From positions 124,001 through 188,000 of the forward strand of contig NC_012590.1 of NCBI RefSeq assembly GCF_000022905.1: a stretch of DNA of 64,000 nt. Direction: 5' to 3'. Shown here piece by piece: positions 33,930 to 53,339 of the stretch. Below the pieces are notes generated by a model. The model was not told where the DNA came from. It did no database searches and worked only from the letters and a program-made list of their open reading frames with translations. Each line of letters begins with the position of its first letter. The first letter of the stretch is position 1. The stretch is from Corynebacterium aurimucosum ATCC 700975. Lineage in GTDB: Bacteria; Actinomycetota; Actinomycetes; Mycobacteriales; Mycobacteriaceae. Both the position numbers and the translations under genes were made by a program.

Positions 33930-33995
33930 TTATTCTCCTTTGTCACTGTGAATGCATCGTATTACGCATGATGGGTGAAAGGAAGAGAGAAATAG

Positions 33996-34028
33996 ACCCC
34001 CTCAGCACAGTGCGTGCTAAGGGGGTGA
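33996..34028 (-). terminator. Terminator of the queuosine-precursor transporter gene
   Basis: CCCCCT-CAGCAC pairs with GTGCT-AAGGGGG across a short loop (33997-34025). On the minus strand it follows the yhhQ stop at 34049 and is followed by a T-rich run. Confidence 0.75.
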
Positions 34029-34048
34029 AAGATCGGGACGGGTCGCTG

Positions 34049-35201: not shown

Positions 35202-35885
35202 ATGACGTTTGGTTCCCCAGGCTCGTCGCCACAGTTTGGCGGGCGCCCGCCGCAAGGGGCTGATCAGCCAGGTGCAGGTTCCGGGTTCGGCGCGCCCGGT
35301 GGGGCTGGGGGTCCCGGTGGTTTTGGTGCCCCGAATCCAGCACAGAATCCTGCCCAGACCCCAGCGCAGAAGCCTTCCTCCGGTACTGATTTTGGTCGGG
35401 GCTCCGGTTTCGGCTCTGCCCCGGGAAGCCCTGCGGGGGCTAACCCTAGTTCAGGGGCAGGTGGCTCTTTTGGTGCGCCGGGCTCGTCTGATGGTTTTGG
35501 TGAGTCCTCGCCTGCACCGGATTATCGCCGTCAGGTGGCAGCACCGACGAGTCCGACGAAGGGGCCGTGGCCGCTGCTCATTGCTGCTGGCGTTTCCGCA
35601 GTTATCGCACTGATCCTCTTGGTCATTGCGCCGCTTATTGCTTCGCCGACGCAGACTCTGTTCTTTGTCCTGGCTATCGGTGGATGGCTGCTGGCCGGAA
35701 TCGTGTCCTTTATCCTCTTGGGCCTGTACACGCTGAAGAACACGCAGCGCCAAGCCGAGACGTTTTATGTTGAGGACACCACGCAAACTTTGCTTTACCG
35801 CATCATCATGGGCGGAAGTTTTGTCCTTGTCATTGTCGCTGCGGTGGAAATCGCCTTCTACGTAGGAAAGGCGGTTGGCGCCTAA
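35202..35885 (+). CDS. Gly/Pro/Phe-rich membrane protein, operon gene 1
   Basis: A 227-residue protein. Residues 1-105 are low complexity, made of GFGAP, SPG and PAQ units, beginning MTFGSPGSSPQFGG and ending SSPAPDYRRQ. Residues 120-225 hold three or four helices (PWPLLIAAGVSAVIALILL and following), so it is an N-terminal cytoplasmic brush on a membrane anchor. Its start MTFGSP, the motif PAPDYR and the entry PWPL are shared with the last gene of the operon (51418), indicating paralogy. Stop overlaps the ATG of gene 2 by one base (TAATG). Function unknown. Confidence 0.75.
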   Translation: MTFGSPGSSPQFGGRPPQGADQPGAGSGFGAPGGAGGPGGFGAPNPAQNPAQTPAQKPSSGTDFGRGSGFGSAPGSPAGANPSSGAGGSFGAPGSSDGFGESSPAPDYRRQVAAPTSPTKGPWPLLIAAGVSAVIALILLVIAPLIASPTQTLFFVLAIGGWLLAGIVSFILLGLYTLKNTQRQAETFYVEDTTQTLLYRIIMGGSFVLVIVAAVEIAFYVGKAVGA

Positions 35886-38740
35886 TGAAGAAGTTCACAC
35901 GAGTACTTGCTTTATCCGCTGCGATGGCCATCACTGGGTTCGGTGGCAGCCTGGGAGCGGTGGCGCAGGATGCTCCGCCGCCTCCGGAAGAGCGCCCTGA
36001 GGGAATCGGCTCCGAATCTGCGCTCTCAGAAGTCTCACAAAAGAACCTCTCCGATTTTGGCTCCTGTATTGCCAGCGAGAAGTCTGCGGACCTGCTCTTT
36101 GTTCTTGACCAATCAGCGTCCTTGGTGGGCTATGAGGGCTCGCAGCCGACGGATGCCGATGCCTTCCGCGTTGATGCCACGGCGGACATCGTGAAGCAGT
36201 TGGCCCACCTCGGGGAAGACAACGGCGCAGACATTAACGTGAAACTCGCTGGCTTCGGATCCGACTATTACAGCGATCCTGCCGAGTATGGCGGGTGGAC
36301 CAATGTCTCCGGTAACGCTGATGCCCTGCAGGGCGAACTGGATAAGTTCCGCAAGGAGGATCGCGTTGCGGATCTAGAGACCAACTATGGCGCGGCCTAC
36401 AAAGGCGCGTTGAAGGAACTCGCTTCTCATCAAGGTAGTAGCTGCCGCGGCATCGTGTTCTTTACCGATGGTAAGTACTACACCGACGCCGAGGCCAACG
36501 ATCTTCAGGGCGCGCAGGACAAGCTGTGTGAGGTCAATTCCTCTGTCACCGCGTTCCGTAACTCCAATATCCGCCTCTTTAACGTGGGCCTCGTGCCAGC
36601 TGCGGAAGCCCAGGATCAAGTCCGCCAGCTCACCCGCATGGCGGAGGGTGAAGACTGTGGCCAGGGTGCCCCGAACGGTGCATTCTTTGACGCGGGTGAG
36701 GACCCAGCAGCGCTGTTCGCGGCCTTCCGTAACCTCATCCCTACCTCGGGTGGCGTAACCAAGGAAGGTAACTTCAAGGACCAGTTTGATTTCGTCCTTG
36801 ATAACTCCGTGTCCCCTGTGCGTTTGTCCGCGGTGCCGAAGAATTCGGTGGGTGAAGGCGACCTCATACCGACCCTGACTGGTCCCGATGGCGAAACGGT
36901 GGAGCTCACACCCGATACCACGAGCGTCGCCGGCGCGAAGGTCTCCGTGACGGAGAACAACAAGCTGCCGGGCATGGTTGATATCGCTATGGAAAAGGAT
37001 GGCGATTCCTGGGCCGGAGCATGGACCTTTGGTTACAAGGCGGCTGAGGGTACGGACGGCGAATACCTTGCTTCCGTCGTTATGGTGCCGGGCCTTAACC
37101 TGGACCTCAAGACCGAAGACGGGGCCAAGGTAGAAGGCGGCATTAACTCGGACCAGATCCTGAAGGGACAGTTGGTCGATGGCAAGGGCGAGCCACGTGC
37201 GCTGGAGGGTGAGGGAACCCTCTACGCGGAGTTCGTACCAGAGGACGGCACCCCGGTCACCCTTGTAGAGAATGCGCCGATCACCGATGGACAGCAGGTA
37301 GATATTCCGCTGGACAAGGTGGAAAACGCGGCATCCGGTCAGTTGCGAACCCGCGTGGAGATCACTACCAAAGAAACGGGTGAGCGCCCGGGCTCGAAGC
37401 TGGATCCCATCAACGCGGAAACGCCGCTGACGGTTACCCCGGTCAATATGCCGACGGTGGGCTCGGCACAGACAATTACCATGACGGAGAAAGAGATTAC
37501 CGTCGACGTTCCCGTGACCGGCCCCGGCAAGGTGTGGGTGGTAGACCAGACCATGGATTCTGATGGCGGAATGCTTCCCGCGGGAGTTCCTTCCGTTGCA
37601 GTGAGTTCTCAGCACAACTCGGAAGATTCCGCACTCGAGCTCTCCAAGGATGAGAAGGCAACCATCCCGGTGACTCTCAGCGTGGAAGAGATGGCGGATG
37701 GACCACTGCGCGTGGAGCCGGTCATTAACCTGCAGTCTGCTGAGGATAACCAGCAGATGGAGCTGCCGCTGACGCTGCAGGGCTCCATGACCGCACCACT
37801 GAGCAAGTCTGCTTTCGGCCTCTCCTTTGTCTTGGCGGTACTGCTGGCACTGCTGATTCCGCTGGCCATTCTGTACTTCATGAAGTGGTTTAGCGGCCGC
37901 ATTCCGGAAAAGCCCCGCATGTTTACGAAGACCATCCCGGTACGCCGAGAGGGTGCGAACCTCGTGCGTACCGACACCGGCCGCCCGTTTGCGGTGTCCA
38001 AGGATGAGTTTCAGGGTGCCGTTCCGGTGGAAGCCTCTGCACGTTCTGCCCGCTTGGGCAGCAATGATGCCAAGGTAAAGATGGGACTGAGCCCCTTCAC
38101 TGCCGCCCACGTGGAGGTCCAGCGCGATGGCACTATCTCCGGCAAGGGCAAGAAGTCCGGTTACCGGGCAGTGTTGCCGCTTGCGGTGCAGAACACGTGG
38201 TTCTTCATCGGTAACAAGAAGGACCGCGATTCTGGCGAGATTGTCATGACCATCGATACGTTGGCACAGGCCAGCGCATACGACGAGATGTCGAAGGAGA
38301 TCAGCCGCCAGGCCCTGCAACTCTTTGACCAAGTCGAATTCCCAGCCGAAAAGGCTGAGAAGGCACAGACGCCGCCGCAGGCAGGCCAACCGGGGCAGCC
38401 GGTCCAGCAGAACCAGCCCGGCTCCCAGCCGCCGAGCGGTCCGCCGCCGCAACGTGGACCGCAGCAGGGCGCTCCCCACCCGGGTGGGCGCCAGCAGGCG
38501 CCGCAACCTGGCGGTTTCGGCCAGTCCCAGCCTTCCGGACCGTCACCTCAGAACCAGCCAGGTCACGCTGAAGAGCCGGGACGCCCCGGCTTCGGCGGAG
38601 CACCACACTTTGGTGGTGGATCTGGTTTCGGCGGCGGCCCGAGCTTTGGCCAACCGGGCCAGCAGCGCCCAGACAATCCTGGTAACCCTGGTAATAACGG
38701 CGGCTGGCCCCCAGCCCCGGGATTTGGCTCCCAGGGTTAA
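35885..38740 (+). CDS. vWA-domain membrane protein with external MIDAS, operon gene 2
   Basis: A 951-residue protein: signal peptide (cut near AVAQD, residue 28), an external von Willebrand A domain (about 66-290) with a MIDAS D75QSAS and FFTDGKY, beta-rich repeats (about 300-630) like immunoglobulin folds, one helix (about 640-665, SFVLAVLLALLIPLAILYF), then a cytoplasmic part with a small beta domain and a long PQG/GFG-rich tail (about 820-951). The tail repeats GSGFGGGPSFGQPG-like units similar to gene 1. It would sense or bind outside and pass a signal in to cytoplasmic partners; that is inferred. Confidence 0.85.
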   Translation: MKKFTRVLALSAAMAITGFGGSLGAVAQDAPPPPEERPEGIGSESALSEVSQKNLSDFGSCIASEKSADLLFVLDQSASLVGYEGSQPTDADAFRVDATADIVKQLAHLGEDNGADINVKLAGFGSDYYSDPAEYGGWTNVSGNADALQGELDKFRKEDRVADLETNYGAAYKGALKELASHQGSSCRGIVFFTDGKYYTDAEANDLQGAQDKLCEVNSSVTAFRNSNIRLFNVGLVPAAEAQDQVRQLTRMAEGEDCGQGAPNGAFFDAGEDPAALFAAFRNLIPTSGGVTKEGNFKDQFDFVLDNSVSPVRLSAVPKNSVGEGDLIPTLTGPDGETVELTPDTTSVAGAKVSVTENNKLPGMVDIAMEKDGDSWAGAWTFGYKAAEGTDGEYLASVVMVPGLNLDLKTEDGAKVEGGINSDQILKGQLVDGKGEPRALEGEGTLYAEFVPEDGTPVTLVENAPITDGQQVDIPLDKVENAASGQLRTRVEITTKETGERPGSKLDPINAETPLTVTPVNMPTVGSAQTITMTEKEITVDVPVTGPGKVWVVDQTMDSDGGMLPAGVPSVAVSSQHNSEDSALELSKDEKATIPVTLSVEEMADGPLRVEPVINLQSAEDNQQMELPLTLQGSMTAPLSKSAFGLSFVLAVLLALLIPLAILYFMKWFSGRIPEKPRMFTKTIPVRREGANLVRTDTGRPFAVSKDEFQGAVPVEASARSARLGSNDAKVKMGLSPFTAAHVEVQRDGTISGKGKKSGYRAVLPLAVQNTWFFIGNKKDRDSGEIVMTIDTLAQASAYDEMSKEISRQALQLFDQVEFPAEKAEKAQTPPQAGQPGQPVQQNQPGSQPPSGPPPQRGPQQGAPHPGGRQQAPQPGGFGQSQPSGPSPQNQPGHAEEPGRPGFGGAPHFGGGSGFGGGPSFGQPGQQRPDNPGNPGNNGGWPPAPGFGSQG

Positions 38741-38810
38741 GCCGGCAGAGCAGCACACAACAGACATAAACAGCACAGAAGTGAACCTCCCCTTCGAAAG
38801 GTAGTTAAAG

Positions 38811-41800
38811 ATGAAGAAGTTCCTCGTCGTCGGTTGCGGTGGCTCCGGCGCCAAGACGCTGGCGTTCATGATGGACCAGCTCAAGGCCGAGCTGCGAAGC
38901 ATCGACCCGGACATGACCGAGTTGCCCAAGGCCTGGCAGTTCGTCAACATCGATGTGCCGCTCGAGGAGGAGGCAGGCCCGCAGAAGCTGCCGAATGTTA
39001 CCCAGAATGGCGGCCACTACGTGGGCATTGGTGCTCGCCAGAACTACAACACCTTCGATGAGGGCGTGTCCAGCATCCTGGGCCGTGCCGGCAAACTCGG
39101 TGAGATCGCAACGTGGGCCACCCGCAACCCCTCTACCAATGACGTGAAGCTGGCTGATGGCGCCGGCCAGTACCGCGCGATCGGCCGCATGCTGACCCTG
39201 CCGAATCTCAAGAAGATCCGCCAGTCGCTCAAGGAAGCGGTGGATGAGATGTTCACGCAGGAGGCAATCCAGGAGCTCAACCGCCTCAACTACAAGCAGA
39301 CCAAGCTGGACACCGATACCGGTGATTCCCAGCCGGTTGTCCTCGTTGTCTCTTCCATGGCAGGTGGCGCGGGCGCCTCGATGTTCCTCGATGTGTGCCG
39401 TGTACTCACCACTATTCCAAACGTGAACCCGCAGGGCACCCTCATCTTCATGTACACCCCGGAGATCTTCGCCGATAACAAGGCGGATGACATGGCCGGT
39501 GCGTGGCCGAACTCGCTGGCTATGTTCGGTGAGGTTGTCGCCGCACAGATGGGTAATGCGTATGATCACGACCGCGCTATCTTTGAGGCCTTCGACATGG
39601 GAACCCCGCCGGAAGGGCAGACCTTCGGCCGTATTTTCCCCATTGGTTCCAAGATGGGCACCACCAGCGCTCGCTTCGGCGATGGTTCCGCCATGTCCAT
39701 CTACCGCGGCTTGGGCCGCGCGTTGGCGGGGCTGATGGCTTCCACCAAGGCCAGCGATAACCTCGTGTCCTACGCGCTGACTAACACCCCGGCCGGTGAT
39801 GGCGGCCGCCGTTTCTTCGGTTGGGATCGCCCGGACGGCACGCCGTGGGGGCGCCTGCCCTGGGGTTCGCTGGGCTATGCCCAGGTTTCGATGGGCCGTG
39901 ACCGCTTTGCCGAATACTCTTCCCAGCGCCTTGCCCGCAGCGCCTTCGAGCGCCTCTTCAACGGGCACCTCGATCCGCAGAACCCCGAGGCCGGCGAGAT
40001 GCAGATTGCGAAGAAGTTGGAGGAGCGCCTGCCTAGCGCCTTTAGCTCTATGACGCTTGATCCTTCCTGGGCACAGGGCGGACAGATCGATAGCGGTAGC
40101 GTCTGGAACTGGCTCAACAGTGTGTTCGGTGGCCAAGCCCAGCAAGCCGCGGACAGCGCCGCGAAGCACCTGCAGAACTTCATTCCGGTGGGCCAGGGCC
40201 GCAACGTCAACGAATGGCGCGAAGAGTTTGAGGGCAACATGGCCGATCCCCGCAATGAGCAGGCCATCGCATCGGTTCTGAACAATGCTGCGTATGACAT
40301 TGTTTACCGCTACGCCAACTTCTTCAGCGATGGTGTCCTCGCCACCGTGGAGTCGGAGCTGGCTGCGGTGGGCGTGCCCTATGTGCGCGAGATGCTCTCC
40401 AAGATCACGGATGTGCTCACCAACTCTGACCTTCTCCTGCCGTGCCTGTTTGAGTACTCTGGCTACTACCAGAACACCCGCGTGTTGGCGAAGCCGGAAG
40501 GCGCGGATCCAATCCTCAGCCCGCTGACTGGCAAGGGCCAGATGACGGACCCGACTCCTACGGTTAATGCTCTGATGGGTCTGTACTTCAACCAGTTCTA
40601 CAGCTACGCCCTTATGGCCATTGCGCACCTGCTCAAGGATGTCCTGCAGGACTATGCCGATGAGAACCTCTTCCACCTTAAGCGCGAGCTGGGGGATGCC
40701 CACGCGGTGTTGGAGAAGGCCGTGTCAAAGCGCCCGGAGACCAACAAGTTGGCCGACGTCCGCACAGACGAGGTCAACTCGTGGCCAACAGAGCTCGATG
40801 AGGTCGTGGAAACCCGCTTCAAGGGTGCCGAGAACGAGATCATGCTGACTGACGTCAACACCTTCATTTCGGACTACCGGGACCAGATGTTGCGTACCAT
40901 CCAGGGCCAGCAGTCCACCTCGGATGTCACCAACTACGAGCAGGCTTATCCCTTTGCGGTGCGTGCGGTCATCCGCGGTGAATGGGAGTCGCTCGATGCG
41001 GCCCAGGCGCCGAATGACACCCTGGCCCCGCAGAAGCGTACCAACGATGCCTACTCCAACCGTGCTGGTTGGGTGTCCAAGTACCTCTCGCGCCATCCGC
41101 AAAGTGGTGAGTCCCGCGAATCGCAGCGCGCGCACTACCACGCCAAGATCCGCCCGACTGATCTGCTGGAGCGCTCGCGCCAGTGGATTAACCGCCGTGA
41201 TTATGAGTTCCAGAAGTTCAACTCGGTGGATCTGCGCCGCTACCTCACTCTTACCCCGGACATCAACGAGGTCGAGCACGCTGAGCGCCAGCGCCGCTTC
41301 ATCGAGGCTTTCCAGCTGGCCCTGAGCTATGCCCGCCCGTTGGCTGCTGTTAACGACGACATGGTTCAGCGCATCCACGGCAAGTCCGTGCAGTACACCT
41401 ACTCCTTCTCCGATATCCCATTTGCGGAGCTTGGCTCCGCAGAAACTGGCATTGCCTCCCAGCTGGAGTCGGTGCTCAGCCGCCCGGAGATTGACGGGCC
41501 TTCCACGGTGGCTCTGCGCAACTCGCTAAACATGTCGGATCACGTTCAGCACATCGAGATCTTCGGTTCCTACCCCAACTACTCGCCGATCGTCTTCTCT
41601 TCGATGTTCAACTACATCGCCAAGGACATCGAGAAGCAGGACAATTTCGATGGTTCCTGGTGGTCGGAGCGCCGCACCCGTCCGCTGCCGGCAGCCCTGC
41701 CGCTGACGAAGACGGAGCGTCAGGCCATGGTGGCGGGCTGGATCATCGGACGCATTACCGGCCGCGTCTACATTTCCAACGCCGATGCAGCCAATGCGGC

Positions 41801-42476
41801 AGCCCACATCTTCGATGACACGGATGGTGGCGTGAATGGCTGGGTTGATTTCCCGGATCCGCTGCTTATCTCGCCGCGCCGCATGATCAAGAAATCCGAC
41901 TGGATGTCTTCGGTTCTGGAGTCCATCTTCATCGCCTACGCGAAGGTGCAGGAAACCGGGCGCTACGGATTCGCTTCCTCGCTCTACCCATACCAGCTGT
42001 TGCGCGGGCTTTTCGACGACGGCCTGGACTTCGCCCATTCCGGTGCATCCACGCACCCGGTGGTTCACCGCCTCGCGCAGTTCTTGGCATCCGGTGAAGC
42101 TCCGAACCGCGGAGTCATGGGTACCTCCATCCAGGACCGCTACGAATCCTTCGTGGAGGAGCTGGATAAGTTCACCCGCGGCGCAGATCACTTTGTGCCG
42201 GGCCACACCAATTCCTTGCCGGGACAGGGACGGAAGGAAAAGCCCTTTGCGGAGGTACGCTCCCGCGAGGTCGCATCGCATACGCCGTACTACCGTGACT
42301 TGGCGCTGGACGTCATCGAGGTAGTTCCGGTTATCCGCAATTACCTGAACCAGGCCAAGACTGTGGCGGAGAATCCCGTCGCCCAGCCTGCCCCGCAGGT
42401 GCGTAGCTCCGATTCCGGCTTTGGCCAGGACGTCGCACCGGAATTCAACCTCAACGACCTGGATGACACCTTCTAA
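38811..42476 (+). CDS. Tubulin/FtsZ-like GTPase protein, operon gene 3
   Basis: A 1221-residue protein. Residues 1-16 (MKKFLVVGCGGSGAKT) and the glycine loop SSMAGGAGAS (181-190) match the tubulin/FtsZ nucleotide-binding pattern in its Tubulin_2 (PF13809) form, where the loop is GGAGAS instead of GGGTGTG. The remaining ~900 residues are unique helical sequence. The C-terminus ends EFNLNDLDDTF, which closely matches the end of the next protein. Long size and the divergent loop argue for a filament- or scaffold-forming protein rather than cytokinetic FtsZ. Strong AAAGG site. No membrane helix. Confidence 0.82.
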   Translation: MKKFLVVGCGGSGAKTLAFMMDQLKAELRSIDPDMTELPKAWQFVNIDVPLEEEAGPQKLPNVTQNGGHYVGIGARQNYNTFDEGVSSILGRAGKLGEIATWATRNPSTNDVKLADGAGQYRAIGRMLTLPNLKKIRQSLKEAVDEMFTQEAIQELNRLNYKQTKLDTDTGDSQPVVLVVSSMAGGAGASMFLDVCRVLTTIPNVNPQGTLIFMYTPEIFADNKADDMAGAWPNSLAMFGEVVAAQMGNAYDHDRAIFEAFDMGTPPEGQTFGRIFPIGSKMGTTSARFGDGSAMSIYRGLGRALAGLMASTKASDNLVSYALTNTPAGDGGRRFFGWDRPDGTPWGRLPWGSLGYAQVSMGRDRFAEYSSQRLARSAFERLFNGHLDPQNPEAGEMQIAKKLEERLPSAFSSMTLDPSWAQGGQIDSGSVWNWLNSVFGGQAQQAADSAAKHLQNFIPVGQGRNVNEWREEFEGNMADPRNEQAIASVLNNAAYDIVYRYANFFSDGVLATVESELAAVGVPYVREMLSKITDVLTNSDLLLPCLFEYSGYYQNTRVLAKPEGADPILSPLTGKGQMTDPTPTVNALMGLYFNQFYSYALMAIAHLLKDVLQDYADENLFHLKRELGDAHAVLEKAVSKRPETNKLADVRTDEVNSWPTELDEVVETRFKGAENEIMLTDVNTFISDYRDQMLRTIQGQQSTSDVTNYEQAYPFAVRAVIRGEWESLDAAQAPNDTLAPQKRTNDAYSNRAGWVSKYLSRHPQSGESRESQRAHYHAKIRPTDLLERSRQWINRRDYEFQKFNSVDLRRYLTLTPDINEVEHAERQRRFIEAFQLALSYARPLAAVNDDMVQRIHGKSVQYTYSFSDIPFAELGSAETGIASQLESVLSRPEIDGPSTVALRNSLNMSDHVQHIEIFGSYPNYSPIVFSSMFNYIAKDIEKQDNFDGSWWSERRTRPLPAALPLTKTERQAMVAGWIIGRITGRVYISNADAANAAAHIFDDTDGGVNGWVDFPDPLLISPRRMIKKSDWMSSVLESIFIAYAKVQETGRYGFASSLYPYQLLRGLFDDGLDFAHSGASTHPVVHRLAQFLASGEAPNRGVMGTSIQDRYESFVEELDKFTRGADHFVPGHTNSLPGQGRKEKPFAEVRSREVASHTPYYRDLALDVIEVVPVIRNYLNQAKTVAENPVAQPAPQVRSSDSGFGQDVAPEFNLNDLDDTF

Positions 42477-45313
42477 TGACGAACGTAATCTTTTTCGGAC
42501 ACGGCGCCACGGCGGATGATATCCGTTCGCGTCTTAGTGATTTGCGTGCGGTTGGCCTTCTGCAGGACTTCCTTTGGATTGACTATGCCCACCCCATCAA
42601 CGGGGCCGTTGTGCGCTCCTTTACGGAGGAGGGCACGGCGCGCTTGTCGACGCTCGACGATGCCCTCCGCAGCTTCAGCGGGGACGTCCTCCTCGCCACC
42701 ATTGACCCGATGGATGCGGCACAGCCGCAGGACGTCGCCAAGCTCACGGAGTGGGTCGGGGCCGTCGATCAGCGCCTGATTCAAGCCTCCAACCTGCGCG
42801 TGCGTTTGCTGCTCTCCGCCCTGCCGCGTGAGAGCGTGGACATCGCTCCGCTGCAGGGCTGGAGTAACCTCGTGCTCTCCCCAGAGGAGGGTGGAACCCC
42901 GGCCTCCTCGCGTATTCGCCCCATCAAGCGCACTGCCAACGGTTTCGAGCTTGCACAGTTTGCAGCCCCAGCCGTAGCCAGCATCTTCGGTTTGTGGCGC
43001 GGCATGCCCGAGCCGGCAGTGCTGGACCCGGATACGCATCGCGTCATCGAGACCGGTGACCGGCAGCGCTTCCGTTTGGTGCGTGCCTTCCACCGCACCA
43101 TCGATGCCGGTGATATTGAGGACAAGGTCAGGAAGGCCGTCTTCGATCCCGGCCAGCGCCTACCGCAGCCGCAGGTCAATAACATTTCTCGCGCCGTGCA
43201 CTACGCCAATCCGGAGCAGCTGACGGATCAGTGCGCCCAGATGTTCATCAACCAGGAGATTTCCCCGTTGGTGAGCGCTCCGACCGCTTATGAGGAGCTG
43301 CAGTCCCACAAAGTCAGCGGCTGGGCGGCGTTGAAGGATAACCTGCGTTTGTACTGGTCCACCGTGGTGGGCAAGCCGCAGGATTGGGTCGAGGGCCAGC
43401 GCGGTGCAATGAACAAGAACGCGGCTACCTTCCTGCAGAAGATGCTCTACGGTGCGGACTCCAGCGTGGAGGTCGTCTTGGCCGGGCACTCCGGTAAGGG
43501 CAGCGGTGCGACGAGCGTCGACGAGCTGCGCCAAGCCAGTGAGCACACCATGCGAGTTGCCCGCGAGCAGCAGTTCTCCTTGGGCCAGGAGCCGCAACTC
43601 TCGCGCACGTGGGAGGCCTATCACGATTATGCGCTGGGCCTTGTCGACGGATCCTGGCGCGACAGCATCGACACCAAGGGGCTGCGCAATAACCAGGGCA
43701 ACATGTACATCGTGCAATACGGTGGCCAGTCCGTGCAGGATGTCAGCGCTTCTTTCGAGGGCTTCCATCCGCTCATGACCAGCACTCTGGGCTATACGCA
43801 CGAGTCCCAAGCAACCGTCGCGCCTTTCGATCCGGTGGGTGCCGAGCGCTTCGCCGCCGATATTGAGTACACCAGCCAGCAGACCCGCAATGAAGCTGTC
43901 AGCCGCAAGAAGCACGAGTTTGCTTCGTGGCGAGCAAAGAACAGCACCACCTTCGCGTGGAAGGTGGGCCAGGGCCTGTGGGAGAAGCTGGGGCACGCCC
44001 AGCAGAAGTACCGCGACGCACACGCCAAGGCACGTGAACTGCAAGAGTTGGCCAACAGCTTCCAAGCGCGTGACTTCAACGCGGAGAACAAAGCGCTGAC
44101 CCGAAAGCTGCGCACGATGTGGATTGTGTTCTTCGTAGTGCTTGCTCTGATGACCTACATGGTGGCCGGCCGCTACAACCCGGACTTGCCGTTGGGTGAG
44201 TACCTGCAGTGGTTCGACTGGCCGTGGTACGTCGTGGGCATCATCCTGGCTGTTCTTCTTTTCCTTGTGTGTTCTTGGGCGGTCTTTACCAAGGCTCAGC
44301 GTGAGATCTTTGACTACGTGCAGCGCCGCAAGCTGTTGAACCGCAACCAAGAGATCGCCGCGCAGAATCTGGCGACGGCCTCGGCCGAGATCTCGCGTAT
44401 CTCTAATGCCTATAACCAGTTCCTGAGCTGGTCGGCATTGCTGGGCCGCGCTATCTACGCGCCCTTTGGGCGCAAGGAGACGTCGAGCGATCACCTGCGG
44501 ACGCCGCAGTCGGGCCTTCCGGAGAACGCTCGCATTGCTCAGGCCGTGCTCAACCGCGATGATGCCGTGCGCATGACGGATGAAATCCGCTCCCACATTT
44601 TCCAGACGGAGTGGGCACACCGCTCGCTCAAGTCCCTCCTCGATGACATGAATGACACCTTTGAGCGCAACCGCACTGGCCACTCGGCCGTGGCGCTCAA
44701 TGAGATGTGGGGCATGGCTGGCCTCGGCTCCAGCACTGCGTTAGATAACCTATCGCGCAGCCTTGACCACCCTTATATGCAGGACCGCGACCTCAAGCAA
44801 CAGGAATGGCAGAAGGTCATTACGGATCCACGCATGGCCCGCAGCTTGCAGCAATACCTCAGTCGCGTGACCTTCCGCGAGGAAGGCGGCAGCCGCGTTC
44901 AGAGCACCGCCGAGTTCCTCGACGGCATGAACCAGGAAAAGGGTGCTCTTCAGGCCTTTAGCCCCAATGCGCTGACCAATGCGGGCGGCGCTGAAGGATA
45001 TACCGAAATCGACGGCTCGCGCACCCGCATCGTGGAGGTGGACAGCCAGACCGCACTGACCAGTCAGCTCTCACGTTCTGTGACCGTGGTGCAGTACGGA
45101 AGGATCACTGATTTCAAGTACCTGATCCCGGATGCGGCGTCTGGTGCTCCGTCCTTTAAGGATTCCTCGGACTTCTCCTTGGATGATCTGGATGACATGG
45201 ACCACATGGGCTTCAAGTCGCCGGGGCAGAGCAATAGCGAAAGCCCGACTGCGCAGCCGCCGTTTGGCCGGCCGGAAGCGCTGGACCTCTCAGACCTCGA
45301 CGAAACTTTCTGA
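42476..45313 (+). CDS. Two-helix membrane protein with tubulin-operon C-tail, operon gene 4
   Basis: A 945-residue protein with a Rossmann-like start (MTNVIFFGHGATADDI), a central pair of helices (about 548-568 and 585-606: MWIVFFVVLALMTYMVAG and YVVGIILAVLLFLV), coiled-coil-like helices before and after, and a long C-terminal region. It ends ALDLSDLDETF, echoing gene 3; an inner FSLDDLDDMDHM repeats the motif. Both termini are probably cytoplasmic. It overlaps gene 3 by one base, so the two are made in step. A membrane adaptor for the tubulin-like protein is the simplest inference; no family is recognised. Confidence 0.72.
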   Translation: MTNVIFFGHGATADDIRSRLSDLRAVGLLQDFLWIDYAHPINGAVVRSFTEEGTARLSTLDDALRSFSGDVLLATIDPMDAAQPQDVAKLTEWVGAVDQRLIQASNLRVRLLLSALPRESVDIAPLQGWSNLVLSPEEGGTPASSRIRPIKRTANGFELAQFAAPAVASIFGLWRGMPEPAVLDPDTHRVIETGDRQRFRLVRAFHRTIDAGDIEDKVRKAVFDPGQRLPQPQVNNISRAVHYANPEQLTDQCAQMFINQEISPLVSAPTAYEELQSHKVSGWAALKDNLRLYWSTVVGKPQDWVEGQRGAMNKNAATFLQKMLYGADSSVEVVLAGHSGKGSGATSVDELRQASEHTMRVAREQQFSLGQEPQLSRTWEAYHDYALGLVDGSWRDSIDTKGLRNNQGNMYIVQYGGQSVQDVSASFEGFHPLMTSTLGYTHESQATVAPFDPVGAERFAADIEYTSQQTRNEAVSRKKHEFASWRAKNSTTFAWKVGQGLWEKLGHAQQKYRDAHAKARELQELANSFQARDFNAENKALTRKLRTMWIVFFVVLALMTYMVAGRYNPDLPLGEYLQWFDWPWYVVGIILAVLLFLVCSWAVFTKAQREIFDYVQRRKLLNRNQEIAAQNLATASAEISRISNAYNQFLSWSALLGRAIYAPFGRKETSSDHLRTPQSGLPENARIAQAVLNRDDAVRMTDEIRSHIFQTEWAHRSLKSLLDDMNDTFERNRTGHSAVALNEMWGMAGLGSSTALDNLSRSLDHPYMQDRDLKQQEWQKVITDPRMARSLQQYLSRVTFREEGGSRVQSTAEFLDGMNQEKGALQAFSPNALTNAGGAEGYTEIDGSRTRIVEVDSQTALTSQLSRSVTVVQYGRITDFKYLIPDAASGAPSFKDSSDFSLDDLDDMDHMGFKSPGQSNSESPTAQPPFGRPEALDLSDLDETF

Positions 45314-45336
45314 CGAGACCTTCTTAAGGAACGTTG

Positions 45337-47757
45337 ATGACACACAATCAGAAACCTTCGATTGCGGATGTGCCGCTGAGTGAGCTTAAGTCCCTGCACC
45401 AGCTCAAGCGCGTAAACGCCGATGATGTGCGTGCAGCTGTATCAGCGCCGTTTAGGCAGTTCGCCGAGCAGATTGCCGCCGCGTATAACGGCGAAGCGGT
45501 CGAGCACCCGGAGCTGAGCGCGCAGGCGCGCAATGCTGCGGTGGACCAGGAACGTGCTGCGCAGGAGCGCGCGGCACAAGAGAGGGCAGCGCAAGAACGT
45601 GCCGTGCAAGAACGCGCGGCACAGGAGCGCGCAGAACGCGAGCGCGCCGCACAGGCTGAAGCGCAGGCCCGCCAACGCGAGCAAGCACAGCGTGCCGCTG
45701 CAGCCGCCGGTGTAGCGCAGACAGGTTCCGCGGCTCAACCCCAACCGGCGCAAGCAGCGGCACAGCCGCACGATTTCTTCGCCGAGTGGGAGGCACTGCA
45801 GGCAGAGGAAGAGCAAAAGACTCAGGTTAACGAAGAGGACTACATCACCATCCCTGGTTTCGGGATTAAGGCGGAGTACCAGTTTCGCCAGGACCCGAAC
45901 TGGGAAGCCCCCGGCATCGAGTTTGAAGTCGAGGTGCCGCAAGAGGCGGCGCTGGAGCAGGAATCTCAAGAAGAGCCTGGCTACGGCATAGAGCCAGAAC
46001 CGGAGCCGGAGGATTCCGATCAGCGCCATCCGGTGCGCCTGTGGTGGCCGGAGCTCGAGCACGCGCCGGATGAGGTGGTGTTCTACCGAGTCGTCGCCGA
46101 TGACGCAGAGATGGTGGCGTCCCCGGATGCCGGTGACACCCTCGTCTACACGAAGGGAACCGCCTACCGTGAACACGAGCCGGGCGAGACAGGCTTGCGC
46201 CACTACGCGGTATGGGCTTATAAGGGCCGCGACCTTCGTGAGCTTGTCAACAGCCAGCCGGTATTCATGGGAGACACGGGCGTGGTCTTCCCGCCGGTGA
46301 ACGTTCAGGTGTCCACCATCAAGGGCGCCATTCAGGTGTCTTGGGACCTGCTGCCGGGGCACTCGAGCGCCATGGTTTATGCCTGCCGCGATAGCGAGAA
46401 GGAAAAGCTGTCCCCGCGCTTCGAACAAGACGTGGACAGCAGCGGGCGCAAGGCGACTATTCCGGTGCAAGAGACCGGACAGACCGTCGTCATCTCCTTG
46501 CTGGGCCAGGCGGAGTTCCACGGCGCTACTGAGCAAAGCCAAGACGAAGTCGCAGTCCAGCGCTCCGTGAAGCTCGCCAGCGAGCTGGAGAAGCTGGAGC
46601 TCTCCCGTTGCGAGCGCCGCAGCGAATACGGACAGGACACCATCGAGGTGGATTGGTACTCGCCCAAGACCGGCGAGGTAAAGATTTATCTCACGCCCAC
46701 CGCCCCGCAGGCGGACCTGCGCACGTCCGCAGTGCCGAAGACCTACGTCGAAAGCGCACTGTCGAGTGCTATCAGTGAGACCCGCGGTGTGTCCGAACCG
46801 GGCTCCTTCCAAACCACCACGGTGCCGTGGCCGCCAGATTGGTACGAGGTTTACATCACCCCAGTGAACTTCAACGATGCTGATGCCTGGGTAGGTGAAT
46901 CCAAGGTGCTGCAGCGCGTGCAGTCCATTGAGGATGACCAGTTCCGGCTCATTGAGCGCGTGGACAGCCAGCTCATTACCTTCGATTGGCCGAAGGGTGC
47001 AACGGCGGTGGAGTACTCCACCAACCGCGAGCACGATCAGATCCGCGAAGAGGACTACGACCTCCAGGGAGGCATCCGCCTGCACCTCGATCAGCACGGT
47101 GATACCGTGCGGCTGAAGCCTTATGCGGTCTTCGCAGGCAAGCGCACCGAGGGCAATGAGCGCGTGATCCAGTACGAAGGTCTGCGCCCAGTGACCTATG
47201 ACTTTGAGGTCGATTCCTCCCAAGGCCAAGCCAGGGTGTTCCTCTGGAGCTTGGGCAACGGCGATAAGCGCCAGTTCTCCTGCCAGGTGGTCTACCGAGC
47301 TGACCGCCTGCCGCTTTTCCCCGAAGACGGCGAGGCGCTCGGCATTGTGGAGACCAATCTGCAGAGCACCACGCACGTGGCTCATGGCTTGGGCCCGATG
47401 CGCGGGCAGCACCCAGATTTCACGGTGGCATTAGGCGAGCGCATTCAGCGCGGCGGCTTCATCCGCCTGTTCGCCGTCGAGGGCTTTGATAGCCAGGTTG
47501 ATACCTCGTTCGACAGCTTCGGTGGTGATGATGCCTTCAGTGGTTTCTCGGAAAGCTACAGCGATGCTTCCTCGACGCTGAGCGCATCAGATAAAGCTGT
47601 GGTGGTAGAAGGCGATGTGTCCTACCGACTGGGGCTGTACCCACCCGTGCAGAATCAGGCTCCGAACTATGAGGCGCAGTATGAGCAGCAGAACTACGAC
47701 CAGCAGAACTACGGGCAGGATTATTCGCAGGATCAGTACTTTCAAGGAGGCCAGTAG
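45337..47757 (+). CDS. Coiled-coil and beta-repeat protein, operon gene 5
   Basis: An 806-residue cytosolic protein beginning MTHNQKPSIADVPLSELKSL. Residues about 68-115 are an AAQER repeat that would form a long charged helix; residues 120-145 are Ala/Gln/Pro-rich. From about 225 to 740 it has several fibronectin-III-like beta units (WWPELEHAPDEVVFYRVV, VQVSWDLLPGHSSAMVYACR, VDWYSPKTGEVKIYL and others, each with the strand-W-strand spacing of FN3 folds). The C-terminus is Asn/Tyr/Gln-rich (YDQQNYGQDYSQDQ). The ATG at 45337 follows AAGGA; a TTG at 45334 is adjacent. Function unknown. Confidence 0.7.
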   Translation: MTHNQKPSIADVPLSELKSLHQLKRVNADDVRAAVSAPFRQFAEQIAAAYNGEAVEHPELSAQARNAAVDQERAAQERAAQERAAQERAVQERAAQERAERERAAQAEAQARQREQAQRAAAAAGVAQTGSAAQPQPAQAAAQPHDFFAEWEALQAEEEQKTQVNEEDYITIPGFGIKAEYQFRQDPNWEAPGIEFEVEVPQEAALEQESQEEPGYGIEPEPEPEDSDQRHPVRLWWPELEHAPDEVVFYRVVADDAEMVASPDAGDTLVYTKGTAYREHEPGETGLRHYAVWAYKGRDLRELVNSQPVFMGDTGVVFPPVNVQVSTIKGAIQVSWDLLPGHSSAMVYACRDSEKEKLSPRFEQDVDSSGRKATIPVQETGQTVVISLLGQAEFHGATEQSQDEVAVQRSVKLASELEKLELSRCERRSEYGQDTIEVDWYSPKTGEVKIYLTPTAPQADLRTSAVPKTYVESALSSAISETRGVSEPGSFQTTTVPWPPDWYEVYITPVNFNDADAWVGESKVLQRVQSIEDDQFRLIERVDSQLITFDWPKGATAVEYSTNREHDQIREEDYDLQGGIRLHLDQHGDTVRLKPYAVFAGKRTEGNERVIQYEGLRPVTYDFEVDSSQGQARVFLWSLGNGDKRQFSCQVVYRADRLPLFPEDGEALGIVETNLQSTTHVAHGLGPMRGQHPDFTVALGERIQRGGFIRLFAVEGFDSQVDTSFDSFGGDDAFSGFSESYSDASSTLSASDKAVVVEGDVSYRLGLYPPVQNQAPNYEAQYEQQNYDQQNYGQDYSQDQYFQGGQ

Positions 47758-47759
47758 TT

Positions 47760-49433
47760 ATGGGCGGCGCCTTTAGCTATGCATCATTTTCCCGTGCCAA
47801 TGGCCGCGCCGGTGGCTGGGGTGTAGGCCAGAAGGCCGGTGATATCACCCAAGAAGAGTTGGCTGAGCTCGTGTCCTTCGTGCCGACCTCTCTCAACAAC
47901 GGCACGACGATCCCGGATTTCCCCTCTGCCCAGCAGCGCGCGGAACTGGTTCGCCGTACTGCGGTCTTTGCGCTCACCCCTGAGGCGGAAAAGTGGGTCA
48001 CCATGGTATCCGTCCCCGCGGGCCTGGATGCGACCGGCCGCGGCGGCAACGTCTTTACCTACACCTCGATTTCGCGCACGGGAACCCCGCCGGCACCGGC
48101 GACGGTCCTGTTTTCTCCTGACATCCCAGCACCTTTTTCCATCTACGAGGTGGATAAGGTGCAGATTCCGGAAAAGATCTCAGCGCGCGGACCGTTGCAC
48201 TCGGACGTGTTGTTGGAAGAGTTTTTGGATGGCGAATTCCGCTACCCAGAGAAGCTTCCCGCACCGTTCAAGGCGGTAGCCCCGAACCCGAATCCGAGCT
48301 TCAACCGTGCGCTGGTTTCTGCCATGGCCACAGTGTTGAATTCCCGCAACGGCCTGGTCATCCTCGTGGCCCCTGATAACCAGGCAGCGCTGTGGATTGC
48401 TGCCACCGCCCGCGAGGTGGGGGAGGATGGTTTCGGCTTCTCCACTTTTGAAAAAGCCGCCGCCATCAATGAGTTCCCGCTGAGCACTTCCACCATGCTC
48501 GTGGTGCCGCCGAGCGAGAAGCAGCGTCTCGCGGAGACGGCGATCCCCGGCAATCCGGTCGTGTTCGCCCTCGATGAGGCCCTGCCAGACGTCAGCTCCT
48601 ATGCAGAAAATGCCGCGGAAGAAGCTGAGTCTGCGGCTCCGGAGCCACAGCAAGAGCAGGCCGAGCAGCGCACTGTTACGACACCCATAGCAGAGGAGAA
48701 CGCTGCAACGGGTAGCGAACCTGCACAGCGAGACGCGCAGAGCTTTGACGATTCTTGGGGTCAGGACTCAGCTGATTTCGGAGCACCTATCGCAGATTCC
48801 TCACCTTTTGCGCTCCCGGGTCATGGACCCGCGGGTACTCCGCCAAATCCCCTCGATGCGCCTGAGCCGAACACGGCGCAGGAGAACCCTTTTGCCACGA
48901 AGGCGGAGGCCGCGCCGGCAACGGCGTCGGGCGGCAACGCCAACGTTCCTGGACTCAGCGCCGAGGAGTGGCATAGGCTCAAGGAATTCGATCCGCGCTG
49001 GTGGATCGAGCACCTTGATACCCACCGTGGTCGCTCCATCCAGCTGGCCTACCTCGATAAAAACTCGTTGGGTGAGGGGTTGGACAAGCTGTTGATGTCC
49101 GCGATTGTTGCCTCCTGGGTTTTCTACTTCCCGCGGGATTTCAACCTCCTAGCAGAGGATGCCCTGCAGCCCTGGGAGGACCGCGAGCTCGAGCACATCG
49201 GATACCTCACCGCTACGCACTTCGCCGGAATCATCGCACTGGATCATTGCGAGCGCTATGCCACGGGGCGCGTCGCCATGTTGCTAGATGGCACGACACA
49301 GTTGCTGGCGGAGCGCTCAGCTCCCATGCAGCAACGACCGGGCCCATCGTATTTTGAACCGAACACAGCATGGCAACACCGGGGAGCAGCTCTCGGTGAG
49401 CACGGTCGAAACATGGGATTCCACGGAAGGTAA
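47760..49433 (+). CDS. GAP1-like GTPase-associated protein, operon gene 6
   Basis: A 557-residue protein. The start FSYASFSRANGRAGGWGVGQKAG and the following AELVSFVPTSLNN look like the N-terminal domain of GAP1 (GTPase-associated protein 1, GAP1-N2 type), known from comparative genomics to be linked with DO-GTPases. A middle domain (about 150-280) and a Pro/Ala/Glu-rich linker (about 285-395) follow, then a C-terminal helical part (LSAEEWHRLKEFDPRWWIEHLD). AGGAGG overlaps the upstream stop. No enzyme motif. With a GTPase two genes downstream, a GTPase-regulating role is plausible but inferred. Confidence 0.65.
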   Translation: MGGAFSYASFSRANGRAGGWGVGQKAGDITQEELAELVSFVPTSLNNGTTIPDFPSAQQRAELVRRTAVFALTPEAEKWVTMVSVPAGLDATGRGGNVFTYTSISRTGTPPAPATVLFSPDIPAPFSIYEVDKVQIPEKISARGPLHSDVLLEEFLDGEFRYPEKLPAPFKAVAPNPNPSFNRALVSAMATVLNSRNGLVILVAPDNQAALWIAATAREVGEDGFGFSTFEKAAAINEFPLSTSTMLVVPPSEKQRLAETAIPGNPVVFALDEALPDVSSYAENAAEEAESAAPEPQQEQAEQRTVTTPIAEENAATGSEPAQRDAQSFDDSWGQDSADFGAPIADSSPFALPGHGPAGTPPNPLDAPEPNTAQENPFATKAEAAPATASGGNANVPGLSAEEWHRLKEFDPRWWIEHLDTHRGRSIQLAYLDKNSLGEGLDKLLMSAIVASWVFYFPRDFNLLAEDALQPWEDRELEHIGYLTATHFAGIIALDHCERYATGRVAMLLDGTTQLLAERSAPMQQRPGPSYFEPNTAWQHRGAALGEHGRNMGFHGR

Positions 49434-49451
49434 GAGAAGGAAATAAGCGTC

Positions 49452-50411
49452 ATGGCTAAATACACACTGCGGGACGGAGAGTCCCGCCGCATCGGCTCAG
49501 ACGGCATCCTGCGCGTCGAAGCCTTCGAGATGGGAACCGGCGGCGCCTCCATGGAGCTGGCGATTTTGGGAGAAGGTGTTGATGCCGTGCGCGTCCACGA
49601 CCTCTCCATCATGGTGCACTCCCTGCCCGAGCGCGCCACCATCGTCGTGCGCCCGAAGCGGAATGGGACCTTCGGCCTGCGCAGCGAGGTCCGCCTGACG
49701 GTGAGCAACTCGAGTGATTCGGTGACGTTCCCGCGCGTGCTTATCGACGCCGCCGAGGACTCCGCCGAACGCCTCGCCGAGGTCACCCCGGAATCCGGCA
49801 GCTACCACTTAGAAGCATTCGGCACGACCGAAGGCGCCGGAATCACCGATTCCGCCCGCGAGGTGCGCTCCAAGATGCGTCGCGCGGAGCTGGATGTCGC
49901 AGGCCTTGATAATGTCACCGTGGTCGTCGATGGTTCCGCCTCCATGCAGATCAATGTCACACCGAAGATCGTCGAGGCGACCGCCAAATATATCGATGCG
50001 CTCTCGGATGCCTTCCGGCACTTCCGCGCCACTGATGGGCAGGACAGCATCGAGACCCATAAGGTGGATGAGCTGACCCGTTTCATCGCGGACGTCATTG
50101 ATAGTGGAGCGGAGCGTGTAGGTCAGCGGCCGTGGCGCTTGCCGACTCTCACCTCCACGTCCTCGCTGGTCATCTACGTCACCGATTCTCCCGTGACTTC
50201 CATGCTGGAAACCCAGGTGCCCACCGTGGTGCTCATCACGAGCGCTATCGGACGCCAGGAGCTGGAGCTCGCGCGAATCAACGGAACCCCGGCTCATGTG
50301 GCGTACGCGGTGATCGACGGGGACGTCGTCAAGCAGCTCGAATCCGGCGCGAACACGGAGCTTTCGGAATTGACTGACCGCGTCACTGCCATGCTGAAAG
50401 AGAGGAACTAA
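49452..50411 (+). CDS. Cytosolic vWA-domain protein, operon gene 7
   Basis: A 319-residue protein without signal peptide or helices. Residues 1-125 are a beta-rich N-terminal domain (MAKYTLRDGESRRIGSDG, with a TerD-like look), and residues 150-310 a von Willebrand A domain with MIDAS D160GSAS and a VIYVTDSP loop. It resembles the cytosolic vWA component (TerY-like) of NTP-dependent conflict systems. The stop TAA overlaps the ATG of the GTPase gene, so the two are co-translated and probably bind each other. Confidence 0.78.
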   Translation: MAKYTLRDGESRRIGSDGILRVEAFEMGTGGASMELAILGEGVDAVRVHDLSIMVHSLPERATIVVRPKRNGTFGLRSEVRLTVSNSSDSVTFPRVLIDAAEDSAERLAEVTPESGSYHLEAFGTTEGAGITDSAREVRSKMRRAELDVAGLDNVTVVVDGSASMQINVTPKIVEATAKYIDALSDAFRHFRATDGQDSIETHKVDELTRFIADVIDSGAERVGQRPWRLPTLTSTSSLVIYVTDSPVTSMLETQVPTVVLITSAIGRQELELARINGTPAHVAYAVIDGDVVKQLESGANTELSELTDRVTAMLKERN

Positions 50412-51421
50412 TGAGCCAGGCACGTTGCCCGTGGACCTTTAAACCGCTCGAGGATGGTGTGACGGTAAGCCCATACACCAACCGGGAGCTGCCGCAGGGA
50501 TGGACCGACGCCGTGACACATTGCGTGGCCATGGCCGGCGCGCGTAACTCCGGTAAGTCGCTCTACACCGCGGTGATGATCAAGCAGCTCAAGCAGCTGG
50601 CGCACAAGCACAACCGCTCCGTCCAAGCGGCGGATGAATCCACGCGCGAGCGCTACGCCGAGGTTTATGAGAAGCCGCTCTTTGAGGAGATGCGTGCCAT
50701 GGACCCCACGCCAAGTGCGGTGGCTACCGACGCCTACCAGCGCGACCCACTGATTTTTGAGCTCGGTAAGTGGCCTGATGAACAGGGACACGAGCGCATG
50801 AATTACTTGGTCTTCCGCGACGTGGCGGGCGAAGACTTGGAGAACCCGCCAGAGAACGAAGCCGACCGCGAGAACCTCGCTTTCTTCTCCCACGCGGATT
50901 TGGTGATTTTCCTCTTTGACCCGCTGCGTGTGCAGCAAATTCAGGACTTTATCCACGGTCTGATTCCCAATATTGGTGAGCTCGGTGCGGATTCCCTGCG
51001 GGTTCTGGACAACCTGCTGGCGCTGCTCGATACGGATACCCCGCCGCCACTGGCCGTGACCATCTCGAAGTTCGACACGGTGCAGAAACTTGAGCAGGTG
51101 GATGACGTGCGTTGGAAGAAACTCATGGCCAACCGCGGCTCCGCTTTCCGCCGGGATACCGGGTGGAACTTCCGCGATTCGGACCGCTGGATGGTCCACC
51201 TTGAAGCCGAATCGCTGTTGCGCTTCTTGGGTGCTAATGACCTTATCAACAAGATCTATTCGGCAGCTCCGCGCGGCGGTAGCTTCTTCGTGGTCTCCGC
51301 GTTGGGTGAGGCCCCGACGGGCCGCCAGCTAGCCCGCAGCGGCATTGCGCCCTACCGCGTTCTGGATCCCATTCGTTGGTTGCTGAGCCAACGCGGCGTC
51401 TTTGCGCAGGATGTGTCATGA
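50411..51421 (+). CDS. P-loop GTPase resembling DO-GTPase2, operon gene 8
   Basis: A 336-residue protein. The P-loop is GARNSGKS (43-50), the Walker B/G3-like element is FRDVAGED (135-142), and TISKFD (217-222) sits where the G4 NKxD/TKxD motif is expected. A helical insert (about 60-115) lies between G1 and G3. The arrangement with a vWA and a GAP1-like protein recalls DO-GTPase systems described by comparative genomics. It would act as a nucleotide switch controlling the operon's machine; that is inferred. It overlaps gene 7 by one base and gene 9 by four (ATGA). Confidence 0.8.
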   Translation: MSQARCPWTFKPLEDGVTVSPYTNRELPQGWTDAVTHCVAMAGARNSGKSLYTAVMIKQLKQLAHKHNRSVQAADESTRERYAEVYEKPLFEEMRAMDPTPSAVATDAYQRDPLIFELGKWPDEQGHERMNYLVFRDVAGEDLENPPENEADRENLAFFSHADLVIFLFDPLRVQQIQDFIHGLIPNIGELGADSLRVLDNLLALLDTDTPPPLAVTISKFDTVQKLEQVDDVRWKKLMANRGSAFRRDTGWNFRDSDRWMVHLEAESLLRFLGANDLINKIYSAAPRGGSFFVVSALGEAPTGRQLARSGIAPYRVLDPIRWLLSQRGVFAQDVS

Positions 51422-51912
51422 CTTTCGGTAGCCCACAACCCCCAGGAACCCCGCCGACAGGCTCGCCTGCCGCGCCCGCACCGGACTATCGCTACGGTGC
51501 AGTCACCGATTCTGTCCGTCAGACCCGCCGTGCCGCCGATATGAAGGCGCAATGGGCACCGTGGCCGTTGAAGATTGCAGCGGTACTGGAGGTCTTCATC
51601 ACGAGCTACGCGGTATACAACATCTGCCGGCTCATCGCCTTTGAAAACAGCCCGGCGGCGGTAAGCCGCACGGACCAGCTCTCCACTGAGCTCGGCGTGT
51701 TACTTGCCGTACTGGTTCTCTTGGTGTGTGCCCTCACCACCTATGTGCTGCACGCGCAGCAGTCCGCGCGGATTGCGCTGACCGTTATCAGCGCCATCGT
51801 GGTGCTGCTCATTCCGGCGAGTTCGGTCATGCCCGCGTCCATCGCATCGGCGGTGGTCATTGTGCTGCTGTGGCTGCCTGCGAACCGGCAGTGGTTCGGC
51901 GGCCAAGCGTGA
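51418..51912 (+). CDS. Small membrane protein paralogous to gene 1, operon gene 9
   Basis: A 164-residue protein starting MTFGSPQPPGTPPTGSP, with APDYRYGAV and WAPWPLKIAA before three or four helices (about 50-70, 90-110, 115-135, 138-157). The opening MTFGSP, the PAPDYR core and the PWPL helix entry match gene 1 (35202), so the operon starts and ends with related anchors. The ATG at 51418 overlaps the GTPase stop. Function unknown; a membrane docking site for the cytosolic parts is a plausible inference. Confidence 0.72.
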   Translation: MTFGSPQPPGTPPTGSPAAPAPDYRYGAVTDSVRQTRRAADMKAQWAPWPLKIAAVLEVFITSYAVYNICRLIAFENSPAAVSRTDQLSTELGVLLAVLVLLVCALTTYVLHAQQSARIALTVISAIVVLLIPASSVMPASIASAVVIVLLWLPANRQWFGGQA

Positions 51913-51913
51913 C

Positions 51914-51949
51914 AAGCCTAGGCCCCGTGCACCGCGGGGCTTAGGCCTT
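51914..51949. terminator. Bidirectional terminator at the operon end
   Basis: AAGCCTA-GG-CCCCG pairs with CGGGGC-TTAGGCCTT around a short loop. It ends the nine-gene operon and overlaps the stop region of the convergent helical-repeat gene. Confidence 0.78.
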
Positions 51950-53281: not shown

Positions 53282-53339
53282 GGGGGAGATTCTAGTAGAG
53301 GACCCCGACGCGCGCGGGACTCCTCGTAGACTGGTTGCC

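Follow-up and report, generated by a model that had tools for sequence, protein, structure and literature searches.

A 64,000-nucleotide stretch of Corynebacterium aurimucosum ATCC 700975 (NC_012590.1, positions 124,001 to 188,000; hereafter the window) contains nine co-directional open reading frames on the + strand, which occupy positions 35202–51912. One of these, gene 3, encodes a tubulin-like protein. Here we report that gene 4, labelled 'hypothetical protein', encodes a probable membrane-anchored pseudo-tubulin, and that the proteins of genes 3 and 4 carry matching C-terminal peptides.

Layout of the cassette

The open reading frames of genes 1–9 are listed as 227, 951, 1221, 945, 807, 557, 319, 336 and 178 amino acids long. 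For gene 9, the ATG at 51418, which forms an ATGA overlap with gene 8, is a likelier start than the TTG at 51376. With this start, successive genes are spaced by –1, 70, –1, 20, 2, 18, –1 and –4 bp. An earlier note on this DNA gave the extent and common direction of the nine genes correctly. It counted five overlapping junctions, where we find four of eight, by 1–4 bp, and it described gene 7 as fused in translation to the GTPase of gene 8, whereas the 1-bp overlap indicates coupling, not fusion. The features are as follows.

35202..35885, + strand: gene 1, small membrane protein with an FG-rich N-terminal tail of ~124 amino acids and three transmembrane helices predicted from hydropathy
35885..38740, + strand: gene 2, signal-like N-terminus, vWA domain (residues 69–257), one transmembrane helix (648–666, hydropathy), cytosolic domain and FG-rich C-terminal tail
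38811..42476, + strand: gene 3, tubulin (PF13809) with helical insert, second tubulin domain and disordered tail
39357..39380, + strand: glycine-rich GTP loop of gene 3 (MAGGAGAS)
42450..42476, + strand: C-terminal peptide of gene 3 (final residues DLDDTF) and stop
42476..45313, + strand: gene 4, tubulin-like fold (model) without GTP loop, with a coiled-coil/transmembrane hairpin insert; probable membrane-anchored pseudo-tubulin
44114..44287, + strand: two transmembrane helices of gene 4 (residues 547–604) predicted from hydropathy
45287..45313, + strand: C-terminal peptide of gene 4 (final residues DLDETF) and stop
45334..47757, + strand: gene 5, beta-rich, probably FNIII repeats; TTG start, with an ATG at 45337
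47760..49433, + strand: gene 6, GAP1 protein (GAP1-N2 and GAP1-M, Pfam)
49452..50411, + strand: gene 7, soluble protein with a vWA-like metal ion-dependent adhesion site (MIDAS), DGSAS, at residues 160–164
50411..51421, + strand: gene 8, DO-GTPase2 with Walker A motif GARNSGKS
51418..51912, + strand: gene 9, small membrane protein whose N-terminal tail starts MTFGSP, like that of gene 1
51941..53341, – strand: gene d1, a helical-looking protein that is specific to one clade and was inserted together with the nine genes; possibly a tenth component

Pfam matches above the cut-off were obtained for gene 2 (VWA), gene 3 (Tubulin_2), gene 6 (GAP1-N2 and GAP1-M) and gene 8 (DO-GTPase2). These families, and the vWA assignment of gene 7 by motif, agree with those named in the note. 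No Pfam family exceeded the cut-off for genes 1, 4, 5, 7 and 9, and an NCBIfam scan gave no match at the curated level. PADLOC models compared with genes 1–9 and d1 yielded none that was convincing (best E 0.027), and Pfam scans of the nine genes revealed no MoxR-type AAA+ ATPase of the kind that marks the MoxR-vWA ternary arrangement. Hydropathy also predicts three transmembrane helices in gene 9, and places the single helix of gene 2 past its vWA domain. Promoter and terminator patterns were no more frequent than expected by chance.

Gene 3 is a predicted GTP-binding tubulin

Gene 3 matches Tubulin_2 with E 2.9e-45, above the Pfam cut-off, and is the single match to this family in its own genome; C. 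glutamicum, too, carries a Tubulin_2 gene. The glycine-rich GTP loop, within SSMAGGAGAS at residues 181–190, is complete (7/7 positions) in all 35 gene 3 proteins compared. A structure model of an ortholog has a complete two-domain tubulin fold around a helical insert, in line with the fold foreseen in the note. By this modelled fold and the loop, gene 3 qualifies as a tubulin with predicted GTP binding, and the model bears on a published doubt about filament formation by FtsZl1 proteins. The best Foldseek match is modest for a certain tubulin (E 1.8e-3), because of the insert. A segment flagged by hydropathy is part of the tubulin domain, and we interpret it as buried rather than transmembrane. 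Profile searches of solved structures with genes 3, 4, 5 and 7 returned no convincing relative.

Gene 4 as a candidate second tubulin

The gene 4 model has a predicted local distance difference test score (pLDDT) of 80.6, with most of its alpha/beta parts above 80. When it was compared against VIA, all 50 of the 50 matches listed were tubulin or microtubule structures, aligned across both tubulin domains. None of 44 gene 4 proteins has all seven positions of the GTP loop, the best having five. These data suggest, with moderate confidence, that gene 4 is a membrane-anchored pseudo-tubulin, i.e. a second tubulin-like fold that lacks the GTP loop. Neither this model nor the peptide common to genes 3 and 4 features in the earlier note.

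Several results weigh against this assignment. In Foldseek, the best gene 4 match has E 0.093, with tubulins intermingled with pore-forming toxins. Profile–profile comparison of genes 3 and 4 gave 0.3% for the whole proteins, indicating no homology, and nothing in pieces; we therefore rejected the two as sequence-detectable homologs. Pfam searches with the 44 gene 4 proteins (E up to 1) matched 63 families, and the 25 listed include no tubulin and are mostly single-member or membrane families. No match to gene 4 at E 0.001 was found in a viral fold library. Of 8000 candidates scored in a protein search, 19 matched, none with a Pfam domain, and the five that were named are 'hypothetical'. Profile, Pfam and Foldseek results thus lend no significant support to a tubulin, and gene 4 could instead be another alpha/beta membrane scaffold, its likeness to gene 3 confined to the tail. 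We consider this a real but lesser possibility, given the quality of the model, the agreement of the listed VIA matches over both domains, and the low Foldseek score that the insert-bearing gene 3 itself obtains.

Matching C-terminal peptides in genes 3 and 4

The ends of genes 3 and 4 pair by genome: DLDDTF with DLDETF in the window, PGEDLF with PGEDLF at locus L041, and PGLD with PGLD at L053. We scored the last 8 residues of each genome's own pair against pairings with other genomes, using representatives picked by a cut-off on gene 3 identity. Own pairs scored 9.2, compared to –3.6 for other genomes (14 representatives <50%, p = 2e-4), and the match persisted among 54 representatives <70% (p = 2e-4) and 6 representatives <40% (p = 0.002). 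Many loci recur between our sets as the same genomes, and the identity cut-offs remove these. Among 36 pairs of C-termini tested, pair 3–4 reached p = 0.0005, the floor with 2000 shuffles, and the next were at 0.033 and 0.044; pairs involving gene 9 had only 4 representatives.

Within Corynebacterium, the tails covary (35 representatives, p = 2e-4). A general docking role is weakened by three observations: outside Corynebacterium the tails do not covary (19 representatives, p = 0.51), gene 4 has no matching end in L032, L033 and L059, and the tail in the gene 3 model is disordered and does not dock. The non-Corynebacterium ends are still alike, scoring 1.37 versus –6.35 for shuffled tails, with 0 of 500 shuffles reaching the observed value. 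In L032, L033, L098 and L099, gene 4 ends directly after the folded part, and the gene 3 tail is kept. At the distant loci L172 and L174, matching ends were seen by eye only, and L173 has no gene 4 match. In L174 (5398–8290), from a distant member of the phylum, the tubulin-adjoining gene ends in LFGGG/SLFS and its divergent neighbour starts MSLFGG, a similar sticker on two genes.

In the genome of the window, the pattern D-[FILMV]-D-[DE]-T-F-stop occurs only at the ends of genes 3 and 4. P-G-x-G-[DE]-F-stop matched in 6 of 8 genomes, each time at both cassette ends. Of three further hits, one is a frame of 14 codons, one is an unverified frame of 207 codons, and the last ends in TGG with no stop. 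The pattern was absent from G036, which lacks the cassette, and from G162, whose cassette has a different tail. A column-wise search for a reader of the tail placed gene 5 in 15 of the top 50 columns versus ~6 expected; the correlations (≤0.33) are uncalibrated, so this is a lead only. Our literature search on covarying tubulin tails returned no paper.

The match might reflect DNA-level gene conversion, composition or common ancestry without selection. In genome G149, genes 3 and 4 agree exactly over their final 21 bases (G149:C1:2731691, 2734444), and matched tail residues have identical codons at 159 of 314 positions. However, the codons at the other 155 of 314 are synonymous, with synonymous differences in other genomes, and the score was never reached by shuffled tails. 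The signal also holds in 14 lineages below 50% and 6 below 40% identity, and pair 3–4 is the only strong one of the 36. These data make an unselected origin highly improbable. It is also unlikely, if less so, that the peptides are a proteolysis or localisation signal for a host factor rather than a docking site of the machine. The tails are short, unstructured and frequently end in F, I, L or V, as such a signal might. Yet no other gene with such an end was convincing in the genomes tested, and the tail appears to change across species more quickly than one would expect if a housekeeping factor read it.

Aromatic tails of genes 1, 2 and 9

Membrane genes 1, 2 and 9 have disordered tails with lineage-specific aromatic motifs in common. 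Plain composition was significant in many pairs, and therefore only aromatic tripeptides were used. Tripeptides common to the gene 1 N-tail and gene 2 C-tail followed lineage among 54 representatives (p = 2e-4) and among 14 (p = 0.0018). The gene 9 N-tail, present in 14 of the 54, takes part in the match with both gene 1 (p = 8e-4) and gene 2 (p = 2e-4). Two points temper this: the signal weakens at n = 6 (p = 0.10), and two of nine comparison pairs (n = 52–54) were also below 0.05, one being the tail of gene 1 against the middle of gene 6 (p = 0.007) and the other the gene 3 tail against that of gene 4 (p = 0.049). Genes 1 and 9 were considered as paralogs, which we do not claim (15.6% probability in profile comparison). 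The gene 2 MIDAS (D.[ST].S) is kept in 114 of 115 proteins, the remaining one being a gap.

Putative switch genes 6–8 and gene 5

Gene 8 matches DO-GTPase2 (PF19993; E 8.9e-8) above the cut-off, which supports the GTPase fold suggested in the note. Walker A and D.AGE motifs are present in 87/87 gene 8 proteins, and [TSN][KR].D in 82. Gene 6 matches PF20013 (E 2.4e-17) and PF20014 (E 4.3e-6), both above the cut-off. Gene 7 has no Pfam match up to E 0.5 and was assigned to vWA by its DGSAS motif, in which D160 is invariant in 39 sequences. Its MIDAS is intact in 88 of 113 proteins and not intact in 25; degenerate forms occur in some Corynebacterium (L089, L092, L097).

Gene 5 likewise has no Pfam match up to E 0.5. 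Its best PDB matches, titin and IGF1R, are weak (E 0.22–0.46), and the protein is beta-rich, probably with FNIII repeats. In L031, L034, L035 and L050–L054 it ends in basic-aromatic residues (GFFRRR, LFRRK and similar), possibly a membrane-binding end.

Distribution and gene order

A gene 3 homolog is present in 64 of 201 Corynebacterium genomes, with one match per genome, a patchy distribution such as the note had anticipated. Forty of these 64 loci were analysed separately (the stretches of L029 and L060 are short). After profile rounds, genes 1–5 were found in all 40, gene 6 in 39, genes 7 and 8 in 38 and gene 9 in 13, with matched genes in the same order and strand in 40/40. A gene 8 search of 251 genomes drawn from the family gave matches in 31, spanning 9 of 31 genera. 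None of the 20 loci examined among these has another order; at L066 no genes other than 5, 6 and 8 were matched, and at L067 none other than 5 and 8. The best 80 of 138 loci, several truncated by contig ends, also showed no other order; their taxa include Mycobacterium, Rhodococcus, Gordonia, Williamsia, Nocardia, Arthrobacter, Propionibacteriaceae and Brevibacterium. Because no locus among the 40, 20 or 80 orders the matched genes otherwise, the linkage, which the note had put forward, is not due to chance. Across the phylum, at least 7 of 346 genomes matched, 3 strongly including the source genome, with two candidates scored per genome. Two plasmid records matched, both from Rhodococcus.

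Relation to described systems

The cassette belongs to a known kind, namely the FtsZl1/vWA/GTPase operons and the actinobacterial tubulin theme of GAP1-N2/DO-GTPase systems. The earlier note had thought the exact combination undescribed; such operons appear in Makarova and Koonin (2010, PMC2875224), who propose membrane remodelling, and in Kaur et al. (2020, PMC7159879), who propose a role in biological conflict. Our comparisons refer to excerpts of these papers and of PMC3678025. In PMC2875224, where a reviewer points to cgR_2627, a vWA protein of C. glutamicum that has a signal peptide, the same tubulin family occurs with vWA and GTPase partners and membrane proteins; in our cassette, the PF13809 tubulin lies next to vWA and diverged GTPase genes. 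There, neither T6-H7 nor any known C-terminal domain was recognised in FtsZl1, whereas the gene 3 ortholog model has both tubulin domains around the insert.

In PMC7159879, actinobacterial GAP1-N2 systems combine a single tubulin gene with a vWA-FNIII protein bound to the membrane and with another FNIII protein; the theme features proteins with FNIII repeats, of which one has HRDC. The cassette likewise has a DO-GTPase (gene 8), GAP1-N2 (gene 6), one recognised tubulin with a helical region (gene 3), a membrane-bound vWA protein (gene 2) and, probably, a second non-enzymatic repeat protein. In contrast to that single tubulin gene, gene 4 models as a second tubulin-like fold, with matching tails. 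Firmicute GAP1-N2 systems also have two tubulin-like proteins, but gene 4 is predicted to be membrane-anchored and lacks the GTP loop. TubZ of phage PhiKZ and Bacillus TubZ (PMC3678025) share the tubulin fold and also a C-terminal tail, which either binds to the adjacent subunit or brings in a cofactor; that excerpt mentions no additional membrane protein bearing this tail. Relative to these published excerpts, the two-domain fold of gene 3, the gene 4 fold, the gene 3/4 tails and the aromatic tails of genes 1, 2 and 9 are new. Among the matches listed in literature searches on these families, C. glutamicum locus tags and pseudo-tubulins, we found no experimental study.

Proposed mechanism and its purpose

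We tentatively propose, as the likeliest reading but at a little short of even likelihood, that the operon encodes a tubulin polymer which is tethered to the membrane, senses the envelope and is governed by a GTPase/GAP1/vWA switch. The vWA domain of gene 2 would sense something extracellular, and its cytosolic tail may cluster with the aromatic tails of membrane proteins 1 and 9, which match it by lineage. Inside the cell, GTP-binding gene 3 would assemble beside gene 4, whose modelled fold could serve as anchor or template. Genes 3 and 4 have the same C-terminal peptide, and therefore one docking site would be used, putatively the adjoining tubulin subunit, as in PhiKZ TubZ (PMC3678025), or an adaptor. 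Genes 8, 6 and 7 may form the switch, by analogy with the systems of Kaur et al. (PMC7159879), and the output could be membrane remodelling or inhibition of an infected cell.

A biological-conflict system (anti-phage or cell-suicide) is also quite conceivable, if slightly less likely: vWA and FNIII proteins would sense invasion, the GTPase/GAP1 switch would fire, and the tubulin assembly would be the effector. This reading addresses what the machine is for, and most of the proposed mechanism could hold alongside it. Family membership (Pfam; PMC7159879) favours it, as do the patchy distribution in Corynebacterium and the position of the whole cassette between genes that lie side by side in 14 genomes without it. 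It is less easily reconciled with the PADLOC result, with a fixed gene set that shows no swapping of effectors, or with the extracellular vWA domain, which fits envelope sensing; nor did Pfam or NCBIfam reveal a nuclease, a protease or any other toxic domain among the nine genes.

Such systems have been predicted since 2010 and 2020 (PMC2875224, PMC7159879). We hold it evenly balanced whether actinobacterial FtsZl1/GAP1-N2 operons combine a soluble GTP-binding tubulin with a membrane-anchored pseudo-tubulin, marked by species-specific 'password' tails in Corynebacterium and by a second, aromatic code joining three membrane proteins, such that the filament would be anchored or nucleated by what is itself a tubulin. 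The hidden second fold offers a concrete protein pair for reconstitution, and the end-peptides an 8-residue handle by which tethering of tubulin to the membrane becomes directly testable.

Insertion site and gene d1

In the window, the nine genes and d1 sit between Vut1 and a tRNA-synthetase-like gene (Pfam tRNA-synt_1c). Among 30 loci around the latter gene, 22 (L184–L205) have no adjoining cassette gene or d1, and in 15 of these Vut1 adjoins the tRNA-synthetase-like gene. Fourteen of the 15 genomes have no cassette, and G025 has it elsewhere. Any of eight flanking genes of the window was found (E 1e-8) in 11 of 140 loci, whose stretches extend only a few kb past the cassette. The site lies within an apparent queuosine-related cluster (31872–35008 and 53019–54281) containing Vut_1 and Glu/Gln-tRNA-synthetase-like genes (both Pfam) and what we take from its sequence to be a tgt-like gene. 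The N-terminus annotated for the Glu/Gln-tRNA-synthetase-like gene (from 53019) runs into d1 and probably includes excess sequence. The d1 protein (465 amino acids, helical-looking, no Pfam family) is encoded convergently with gene 9. It was found in 15 of 201 genomes, the 13 strong matches all in cassette carriers of a single clade and the 2 weak ones in non-carriers, and is a possible tenth component of the cassette.

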